A stretch of DNA of 64,000 nt, taken from contig NZ_CP054856.1 of the NCBI RefSeq assembly GCF_018417475.1, positions 4,574,209 to 4,638,208 of the forward strand. The letters run 5' to 3'. A program made the position numbers and the translations under genes. Positions 4,924 through 7,410 of the stretch are shown here, one piece after another. The DNA is from Novosphingobium decolorationis. GTDB taxonomy: Bacteria; Pseudomonadota; Alphaproteobacteria; Sphingomonadales; Sphingomonadaceae. The notes beneath the pieces are model-generated. The model was given only the letters and a program-made list of their open reading frames with translations. It was not told the origin of the DNA and searched no databases. Each line of letters starts with the position of its first letter. The first letter of the stretch is position 1.

Positions 4924-5218
4924 CTCTTGTTTTATTCCAACCTGGTGTTCGTGTGCGACCGCGAGGCGGTGTCTTGTGAAGCGGCCTCCCGATCCGATGT
5001 AATCGGACCAACCGCTCCAGATTATGGCTTCCCGCATATTCGGAATCATCAGGTGAATCCATCAAGCGGAAAAAATGCTCTGGGCGACTCGCCATAGCGC
5101 GGTTGGGGTTAAATTTCTTGCCCGGAATGGACCTCGGGCCCTGTCGGGGGAGGGCCTGTCCTGCAGGCCGTGCGACGGGGCTTTGACAGGGGCGCGGGAA
5201 CGGGGCAGCGTTCGCCGC

Positions 5219-6220
5219 ATGTCGCCTGTCCCCCATTCACCAGATTCGCCCTCCGGCCCGGATGCGCCGTCCCTCGCGCTTTCGGGAGGCAATGTGCCGG
5301 GGCATGCCGGGCGCCAGCCTGCCTACACGCTCCACGGCGGCGGTGCGGGGGAGATGCCGATCCTCTTGGCCGTGCCGCACGCGGGCAGGGCCTATCCCGA
5401 GGCGCTGCTGGGGGACCTGCGCGAAGCGGGGCAGGCCAGTGTGCGGCTGGAGGATCGCTTCGTCGATATTCTTGCGCGCGGCGTGGCCGAGGCAACCGGC
5501 GTCGACTTGCTCCTGGCCCACGCGCCGCGGGCGATGATCGATCTCAACCGCGCGCCCGAGGATGTCGACTGGGGCATGGTCGAACGCATGCCCGGCGAAA
5601 GGGTAGCGGGCGCATCGCGTGGAGTGCTTTCGCCGCGGGCGCGCAGTGGTCTTGGTCTCATTCCCCGGCGTCTGCCCGGTATTGGTGAATTGTGGCGCCG
5701 TTCGCTGCGCCGCGAGGAAGTCGAGGCCCGGATCGCGCAGGTCCATGCGCCCTACCACGCCGCGCTCGCGCAGCGTCTGGCGGAAATTCGCGCGCGCTGG
5801 GGCGTGGCGCTGCTGGTCGATCTGCATTCGATGCCGCCGCTCCAGGCCCGGCCCGGCCAGACCAGCGCCGAGATCGTGATCGGGGATCGCTTCGGGGCGA
5901 GTTGCCATGGCGCGGTCATCGCCGCGACCTTTGCCCATTTTGCCCGTTGCGGGCGCGCTGCAGCGCATAATCGGCCCTATGCCGGTGGCTATGTCCTCGA
6001 CCGTCATGCTGCGCCCCGTCGCGGCATTCACGCGCTCCAGGTCGAGATTGACCGGACGTGCTATCTCGATGCGCAGATGCGCACGCCGAGCGCGGGCGTG
6101 GACGTTCTGGTGGAGCAGCTTGCAGGCCTGGTGCGGGTCCAGGCTGCGGCGGTCATGGAGCTGGCGCGCCCGCGCGGGGCTGAGGAGGGCGGCGAGGATT
6201 GGCCGCTCGCCGCGCAGTAG
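5219..6220 (+). CDS. N-formylglutamate amidohydrolase family protein
   Basis: The 333-residue product (ATG at 5219) carries N-formylglutamate amidohydrolase family motifs: AVPHAGRAYPEALLG near the N-terminus, the DLNR block (MIDLNRAPEDVD), LLVDLHSMPP, IVIGDRFGASC, PYAGGYVLDRH and the ALQVEIDR segment. Characterised members hydrolyse N-formyl-L-glutamate, at the end of one histidine-degradation route, in a metal-dependent reaction. No hut genes are adjacent, so the physiological substrate is open. The first ~40 residues are low-complexity and may be partly untranslated. Confidence 0.85.
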   Translation: MSPVPHSPDSPSGPDAPSLALSGGNVPGHAGRQPAYTLHGGGAGEMPILLAVPHAGRAYPEALLGDLREAGQASVRLEDRFVDILARGVAEATGVDLLLAHAPRAMIDLNRAPEDVDWGMVERMPGERVAGASRGVLSPRARSGLGLIPRRLPGIGELWRRSLRREEVEARIAQVHAPYHAALAQRLAEIRARWGVALLVDLHSMPPLQARPGQTSAEIVIGDRFGASCHGAVIAATFAHFARCGRAAAHNRPYAGGYVLDRHAAPRRGIHALQVEIDRTCYLDAQMRTPSAGVDVLVEQLAGLVRVQAAAVMELARPRGAEEGGEDWPLAAQ

Positions 6221-6255: not shown

Positions 6256-6287
6256 AAAAAAACCACCCCGCGCGACGCGCGAGGTGG
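6256..6287 (-). terminator. Intrinsic terminator of the predicted sRNA
   Basis: An 11-bp stem with one C-A mismatch and a 3-nt loop (6263-6287) is followed on the minus strand by seven T. It is oriented away from the downstream amidohydrolase gene, so it fits a separate minus-strand transcript. Confidence 0.8.
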
Positions 6288-6359
6288 CCAAGGTTCAGGG
6301 AGGAGGTGCACATCGAGTGCACCAGCCGATCGGGCCATGAGGGTAGCGCCGATCAGGCT
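6256..6359 (-). ncRNA. Predicted ~104-nt small RNA with CCUCCUCCC motif
   Basis: Four elements line up on the minus strand. (1) A sigma70-like promoter: TTGAAC, 16 bp, TATGTT. (2) Stem-loop 1 starts exactly at the predicted first base: AGCC(T)GATCGG pairs with CCGATCGGCT around a 15-nt C-rich loop. (3) Directly adjoining is stem-loop 2, GGTGCAC/GTGCACC with a 5-nt loop. (4) A single-stranded CCUCCUCCCU (6306-6297) is followed by an 11-bp terminator hairpin and seven T. The C-rich motif is complementary to Shine-Dalgarno sequences and recalls the alphaproteobacterial CcsR/cuckoo sRNAs, although there the motif usually lies in hairpin loops. No convincing ORF accounts for the region. Prediction only. 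Confidence 0.65.
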
Positions 6360-6365
6360 GGCTCC

Positions 6366-6393
6366 AACATAGCGAACCTTGTGCCGAGTTCAA
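6366..6393 (-). promoter_or_regulatory. Sigma70-like promoter of the predicted sRNA
   Basis: TTGAAC (6393-6388) and TATGTT (6371-6366) are separated by 16 bp. The expected start is near 6359, the first base of stem-loop 1. This lies beyond the sapC terminator, so it is independent of sapC. Confidence 0.6.
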
Positions 6394-6508: not shown

Positions 6509-6552
6509 GCGGCCCGGGCGGACTTCGCGTCTGCGTCGTCCACCCGGGCCGC
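6509..6552 (-). terminator. Terminator after sapC
   Basis: A 14-bp GC-rich stem with one mismatch (6509-6523 with 6538-6552) is followed on the minus strand by TGCTTTTG. It lies 72 bases past the sapC stop. Confidence 0.7.
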
Positions 6553-6624: not shown

Positions 6625-7410
6625 TCAGGCGTTCGCGGCGGGAGCCTGCGCGGGGGCCTGCGGGCCCTTGCCCTGCTGCATCTGGCGGCCGAAGATGTCG
6701 CGCACCAGGTCGAGCGAGAAGAGGTGGGCGTAGATCAGCGCGAGGAGGCCATTCTGGTTCCACTGGCGCAGGATGTCGCCACGCACTTCGCGCAGCTTGT
6801 TCTCGTCGACCATCTTGAAGCCGCGGTAGTTGAAGGGCTGGCCGCCGCCGATGTCGATGTTGAGCTCACCGTCCATGAGCAGGTCGTGCTTCTTGAGCTC
6901 GGCCATGAAGTTGCCGGTCTTCGAACCCGCCATCTCGAAGTTCTCGCAGAACTTGAGCATGTTCTTGGTGGTGTCGGTCGGTTGGCCGTCGGCGAACAGG
7001 GCCTCGCCTTCCTCGATCTCGCCGATCAGGTCGCTGCTGGGGTCCACGCAAAGCGAAAGCTCTTCGCTGTCCGGACGCAGGCGCGCGAGCATGAAGGGGT
7101 AGCGACGCGCGTAAGCGGGGATGTAGACCGGGTTGGGAACCGTGCCGTCGTCCTCGACGAAGACGTTGACGCCCTCGTTCATGCCCATCAGCGCGAGCGG
7201 GATCGGCTGGTCGGAGCCGGTGAAGATGATCGGGAAGTGGCGCTGCGCCTGCGGGAACTCTTCGACGGTCAGGGGAATCGAGTTTACCCCGGCCAGCCAG
7301 GTCGCCTTGTCGGTCGAACGCGTCTTCCAGCTTGCGTGCTGCTGCGAATTGAGCGGCACCAGATCCTTGTAGAACAAGGGAAGGGATGGATTCTGTGGCG
7401 CAGTGGCCAT
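6625..7410 (-). CDS. SapC family protein
   Basis: The 261-residue protein matches the SapC-like family: LFYKDLVPLNSQQHASWK near the start, HFPIIFTGSD, NVFVEDDG, then YIPAYARRYPF, followed by GEALFADG, NFMAELKKHDLL and the C-terminal LREVRGDILRQWNQNGLL region. SapC was first described as an S-layer-associated protein in Campylobacter. In sphingomonads it is often found near TonB receptors and carbohydrate genes, but its biochemical role is unknown. It has no signal peptide and ends in an Ala/Pro/Gln-rich tail. It is monocistronic here. Confidence 0.88.
   Translation of the reverse strand: MATAPQNPSLPLFYKDLVPLNSQQHASWKTRSTDKATWLAGVNSIPLTVEEFPQAQRHFPIIFTGSDQPIPLALMGMNEGVNVFVEDDGTVPNPVYIPAYARRYPFMLARLRPDSEELSLCVDPSSDLIGEIEEGEALFADGQPTDTTKNMLKFCENFEMAGSKTGNFMAELKKHDLLMDGELNIDIGGGQPFNYRGFKMVDENKLREVRGDILRQWNQNGLLALIYAHLFSLDLVRDIFGRQMQQGKGPQAPAQAPAANA

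Follow-up and report, generated by a model that had tools for sequence, protein, structure and literature searches.

We asked what occupies the interval between sapC and the converging gene for N-formylglutamate amidohydrolase (FGase) in Novosphingobium decolorationis, where an earlier note had proposed a small RNA that could form a distinct class. The window, that is, the whole 64,000-nt stretch analysed (GCF_018417475.1, NZ_CP054856.1, positions 4,574,209 to 4,638,208 of the forward strand; its genome is G000 below), very probably carries there a genuine gene for a small regulatory RNA: the sphingomonad copy of the MmgR/SuhB/SisA (alpha-r8) family at its usual place. The RNA is conserved, its structure covaries, its neighbouring genes are kept and it is related to that family. 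The features of the locus, in window positions, are:

5075 to 6220, plus strand: FGase (N-formylglutamate amidohydrolase) gene, converging on the RNA; longest open reading frame (PF05013, E 5e-63 on 5234-6217)
6256 to 6289, minus strand: predicted intrinsic terminator with seven T (terminator scan; helix cells 100% paired)
6290 to 6304, minus strand: predicted single-stranded seed UCCUCCCUGAACCUU (TCCTCCCTGAAC in 83 of 86 relatives; CTCCCTGAACCT in 86 of 86 loci)
6305 to 6323, minus strand: stem-loop 2 (GGUGCAC/GUGCACC), counterpart of the alpha-r8 hairpin (RNAalifold; RF00519 alignment)
6326 to 6357, minus strand: stem-loop 1, the 5' hairpin (RNAalifold; covariation)
6337 to 6343, minus strand: CCCUCAU apical loop of stem-loop 1 (CCCTCAT in 84 of 86 relatives, CCCTCATGG in 83 of 86)
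6256 to 6359, minus strand: alpha-r8 (RF00519-like) small RNA of about 104 nt, 5' end inferred
6366 to 6371, minus strand: putative -10 hexamer TATGTT, read from the sequence (TATCTT in 34 of 86 relatives, TATGTT in 11 of 86)
6388 to 6393, minus strand: putative -35 hexamer TTGAAC, read from the sequence (the best-scoring site has TTG at the corresponding position in 83 of 86 relatives)
6625 to 7410, minus strand: sapC gene, upstream of the RNA (PF07277, E 1.2e-72)

Conservation was surveyed by blastn in 148 genomes, 89 of them from the window's genus (its own included). Strong matches (E <= 1e-10) were found in 85 of these 89, giving 86 loci since one genome has two copies; three genomes (G001, G060 and G087; 83, 75 and 52% complete) yielded no blastn match and G051 (89% complete) a weak one only. 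Outside the genus, blastn gave just three weak matches (G094, G099 and G100). At every one of the 86 genus loci sapC is found upstream in the same orientation, and at 83 an FGase gene converges from downstream; no FGase was seen at L036, L037 and L086, the last two being short pieces. Both the stems and the C-rich motif, whose conservation in relatives the earlier note had set as the test of its proposal, are conserved.

The predicted fold of the RNA has an energy of -62 kcal/mol (z -7.05), and 0 of 200 shuffles did as well. RNAalifold, applied to an alignment of the 86 genus sequences (83 distinct rows; weak matches L087 to L090 left out), gave a consensus structure of 27 pairs, in which 96.6% of cells are paired (shuffled mean 88.0), 14 of the 27 pairs show double-sided changes (7.7 in shuffles) and the covariation score is 0.288 (0.128 shuffled). 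None of these three values was reached by any of 500 shuffles, a control inflated by the relatedness of the sequences, whereas sliding the partners, which preserves relatedness, reduces pairing to 35-47%. Stem 1 is the most variable (84.5% of cells paired), with double changes in all five lower pairs, and in the single-sequence fold its stem-loop reaches further (6362-6321); stem-loop 2 is paired in 98.4% of cells and has double changes in four pairs. The conserved stretch UCCUCCCU is unpaired in the consensus fold. The C-rich motif CCUCCUCCC had been described as single-stranded, but its first two C (6306 and 6305) are paired within stem-loop 2, and the predicted unpaired stretch is therefore UCCUCCCUGAACCUU (6304-6290). 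The site had also been said to lack any protein gene; six open reading frames overlap the RNA span (five of 32-76 aa and one of 116 aa ending at 6257), but the changes in the stems are compensatory, which favours an RNA over a protein at 6256-6359. A small RNA gene at about 6359-6256 of the minus strand is thus borne out by conservation, fold and covarying stems.

The RNA likely starts near 6359, as deduced from the position of the -10 hexamer; TSS-seq data exist for N. aromaticivorans DSM 12444 (GEO GSE150944), as reported in PMC7471390. By our own count 8 of the 12 consensus bases are present in the predicted sigma70-like promoter, which has a 16-nt spacer in the window copy, and a consensus scan, which needs 9 matching bases, found no strong consensus promoter. 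What stands of the promoter claim is its place: relatives keep TTG...TA in 83 of 86 cases, with a spacer of 17 in 75 of 86, at the best-scoring site of a scan that gave a bonus to TTG/TA. Scanned without the bonus, the mean best score was 7.70 against 6.83 in shuffled sequence, the highest of 20 mononucleotide shuffle rounds reaching 6.97; support for this putative promoter is positional. The predicted terminator (stem 6289-6261, seven T at 6262-6256, minus strand) is likewise present and conserved, but the terminator scan found 1 against 1.7 expected, so that taken alone it is no better than chance, and conservation carries the evidence for this candidate element. Separately, a G+C-rich inverted repeat seen by eye 3' of sapC, GGCCCGGGTGGAC...GTCCGCCCGGGCC at 6511-6550 of the minus strand, may be the sapC terminator.

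Rfam's own cut-offs leave only three tRNAs in the window. A permissive search places RF00519, the alpha-r8 family, from hairpin 2 to the terminator, and RF00519 was the top Rfam match at the site in all seven loci searched. The window copy (L001) scores 35.9 bits (E 1.8e-5 for the genome), below the RF00519 cut-off of 41 bits; the other scores at the site are 37.1 (L030), 32.9 (L084), 31.2 (L002) and 21.3 bits (L079), and two loci from another family of the order, also beside FGase, exceed the cut-off at 54.3 (L087) and 46.6 bits (L089). Among 20 further Novosphingobium loci none passed, 9 matched at E <= 1 and 11 had no match; among 8 loci from other genera the corresponding figures were none, 6 and 2. 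The kinship is also one of anatomy and place. Like alpha-r8 RNAs (MmgR of Sinorhizobium meliloti, SisA-D of Caulobacter crescentus, SuhB of Sphingopyxis granuli), the window RNA lies beside FGase and consists of a hairpin, then unpaired UCCUCCCU, then a Rho-independent terminator, with the common core CUCCCURAACYU. As described in PMC12559287, alpha-r8 RNAs occur in all Alphaproteobacteria but Rickettsiales, have one copy beside FGase in most species and, following a weak hairpin, carry a 10-nt core that reads UUUCCUCCCU. The window RNA is identical to that core at 8 of 10 positions; its own 10-mer is CCUCCUCCCU, of which the first two bases sit in its 7-bp hairpin, and the full UUUCCUCCCU occurs in 0 of the 86 genus sequences. 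Its predicted length of about 104 nt, with a 5' hairpin, differs from the reported 77 nt of MmgR (PMC8401924) and 61 nt of Sphingopyxis SuhB (PMC6563040).

We then linked the genus copies to the family with a covariance model, R1, built from the 86 genus sequences, whose E-values are rough. R1 recovers L089 (E 1.5e-9), L087 (E 1e-8) and, at E <= 1, 26 of the order's best 30 RF00519 loci. It has matches in 75 of 99 genomes of the order, 98 of which have FGase; the FGase gene lies within 1 kb of the match in 54 of the 75 and is convergent and downstream in 53, and the remaining 21 comprise 13 with FGase farther along the same contig (12 of these 1.6-13 kb downstream) and 8 without FGase on the contig. 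The window's family has R1 matches in 22 of its 26 genomes, each beside FGase; G149, G158, G164 and G182 gave none in this search. Places found by R1 coincide with the RF00519 hits listed, all of at least 46.6 bits, in 0 of these 22 genomes versus 40 of 53 from other families; the syntenic gene, which mostly scores as alpha-r8 elsewhere, has therefore drifted in the window's family. Because of this drift the RNA was overlooked by database scoring, and annotation based on the cut-off will probably miss the FGase-linked copy there, since it scores below that threshold. We hold with good confidence that the locus is a stand-alone, trans-acting sRNA gene, namely the sphingomonad form of the FGase-linked alpha-r8 copy (SuhB/MmgR/SisA, RF00519). 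Literature searches judged by paper titles turned up no published description of this sphingomonad copy; the Lagares 2016 family survey may well list it.

A pattern scan of public genomes extended the picture to at least 119 stretches, mostly titled as sphingomonads. Among the 119 listed, 103 have sapC upstream, as many have FGase downstream and 90 have both, and about half of the neighbour misses fall near a stretch end. R1 matched 58 of 60 pattern loci tested at 1e-8 or better, missing L103 and L149. The 10-mers in 118 of the listed loci (L103 left out) are CCUCCUCCCU (47), UCUCCUCCCU (38), CCACCUCCCU (8), GUUCCUCCCU (7), UUUCCUCCCU (6) and others (12). Across the whole class, RF00519 matched in 40 of 76 genomes, and FGase lies within the retrieved stretch at 20 of 29 loci examined. 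Among side observations, six Sphingobium loci (L112, L153, L174, L184, L205 and L208) carry the RNA without a downstream FGase match, and L106, also Sphingobium, has FGase. L148 and L149 are titled Actinobacteria and Thermococcus; the title of L148 is doubtful, and L149 matched neither a neighbour gene nor the RNA model.

The likeliest mechanism, by analogy with what has been shown for Caulobacter SisA, would be Hfq-assisted pairing with Shine-Dalgarno sequences that lowers translation. The gene's own promoter would drive a transcript of about 104 nt, whose exposed UCCUCCCU would pair, with the help of Hfq, with the Shine-Dalgarno sequences of several mRNAs as in its relatives; this would lower translation of these mRNAs and might thereby tune carbon or storage metabolism, as the studied relatives do. 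Conservation of the motif supports the earlier suggestion that the C-rich stretch could act as an anti-Shine-Dalgarno sequence. SisA is reported to repress mRNAs via UUUCCUCCCU and to be sponged by the sRNA CrfA (PMC12559287), Sphingopyxis SuhB to act with Hfq on the thnR 5' UTR and to be high at fast growth (PMC6563040), and MmgR to reduce polyhydroxybutyrate storage (PMC8401924); in these three sources the family members studied are described as responding to the carbon source, the nitrogen source or the growth rate. Hfq is encoded in the window's genome, where two Hfq (PF17209) domains lie in tandem within a single 219-aa open frame (L299/L300, G000:C1:476045-476470, minus strand), and PMC3474761 mentions two hfq-like copies for N. 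aromaticivorans.

Candidate targets were sought in the window's genome by complementarity. AGGGAGGA stands 2-10 nt 5' of an ATG at 13 sites versus 1 in the reversed control, eight of them before open frames of at least 148 aa and five before frames of at most 25 aa. By Pfam, the eight longer frames encode two AraC-type regulators, a TauD-type dioxygenase, a cytochrome c, an M13 peptidase, ribosomal protein L9, an AAA protein and one product without a match. These genes are candidates only, because a good Shine-Dalgarno sequence looks identical, and the excess may reflect merely such sequences. Longer complementarity to the seed (GTTCAGGGAGGA, at most one mismatch) showed no enrichment, with 13 sites versus 23 in the reversed control.

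How firmly does the alpha-r8 assignment stand against other readings? That the RNA forms a distinct anti-Shine-Dalgarno class, or belongs to CcsR/cuckoo or ar14 (NfeR1) and merely resembles alpha-r8, would suit the C-rich CCUCCUCCC motif, the RF00519 score below cut-off and the weak ar14 matches of 26.6, 21.4 and 19.2 bits. Yet ar14 (RF02344), which is C-rich too, requires 58.8 bits, against 19.2 for the window copy and 26.6 at best. The rhizobial sRNAs SmelA075 and SmelA099, taken here together with the cuckoo/CcsR group, share CCUCCUCCC and the anti-Shine-Dalgarno character, but in them, as described in PMC3927594, the motif sits in three or four hairpin loops, whereas the window RNA has a single one, between hairpin 2 and the terminator, as in alpha-r8. 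None of 19 Rfam matches at E <= 10 is named CcsR or cuckoo, in a database that may hold no such family. Against a class of its own stand the rank of RF00519 at the site and the syntenic copies in other families that pass its cut-off; by covariance score, core sequence and place beside FGase the RNA groups with alpha-r8. Common synteny and core largely refute these readings, which we consider very unlikely, and the idea of a distinct class gives way to that of a diverged member of an already described family, sitting where that family is known to sit.

Two further readings accept the locus and dispute its action or its independence. The RNA might act mainly on another sRNA, as sponge or target, and not on mRNA start regions, given its two conserved C-rich unpaired sites and the pairing of Caulobacter alpha-r8 RNAs with the sRNA CrfA reported in PMC12559287. 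We judge this unlikely: the studied members repress mRNAs (SisA targets, PMC12559287; thnR by Sphingopyxis SuhB, PMC6563040), and the genome contains a single exact complement of GTTCAGGGAGGA, the RNA gene itself. Still less credible, and the least so of all, is the absence of an independent RNA, the element being a terminator or attenuator in the sapC-FGase interval, or else the 3' end of a sapC transcript. Although a bidirectional terminator would fit convergent genes, loop and seed are conserved as strongly as the stems, the promoter-like pair holds its position among relatives and the distance from sapC to the match differs from locus to locus.

Within the alpha-r8 reading, the apical loop of the 5' hairpin attracts attention. 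The loop CCCUCAUGG is found in 83 of 86 genus sequences, and its CCCUCAU is nearly invariant, matching the seed in constancy inside a lineage, with CCCCCCUUU instead in Sphingomonas, Sphingobium and others; of the 119 listed pattern loci, 48 have CCCUCAU, 58 CCCCC+UUU and 13 neither. The complement of the loop (GCCATGAGGGNAGC, at most one mismatch) occurs at 10 sites, including the RNA gene itself, versus 3 in the control, an excess that is suggestive only. Tentatively, the loop could be a second, independent regulatory site, making the RNA a two-site regulator whose second site is exchanged between lineages; if so, the exchanged loop perhaps reads a lineage-specific partner RNA. We also considered, and rejected, the idea that the 5' hairpin arose within the sphingomonads: single-sequence folds of 28 of 29 class-wide RF00519 loci (the 29th showed no seed), with starts not fixed and no shuffle control, mostly place a hairpin 5' of the alpha-r8 hairpin as well. 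The hairpin as such is therefore not special, and the special feature may be its frozen, lineage-specific loop.

Apart from its drifted score, paralogues and loop, the RNA is an unremarkable representative of a family already known. In those few alphaproteobacteria where they have been studied, alpha-r8 RNAs govern carbon storage and the switch from feast to famine, and the bacteria concerned here are in use as degraders of pollutants and lignin; the anatomy of the RNA, three diverged paralogues and the exchanged second loop offer a direct entry to post-transcriptional control of catabolism. The paralogues are three RF00519 copies over cut-off in the same genome (L091, L092 and L093 at G000:C1:2707241, 3290819 and 1521949), whose seed is AUCCUCUCCCAAA, unlike that of the window copy; under R1 at E <= 1, L092 scores 14.3 bits (E 0.087), and L091 and L093 give nothing. 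Elsewhere, RF00519 copies stand in tandem a few hundred bases apart, at G268:C25:248186-248452 and G309:C7:54432-55030.
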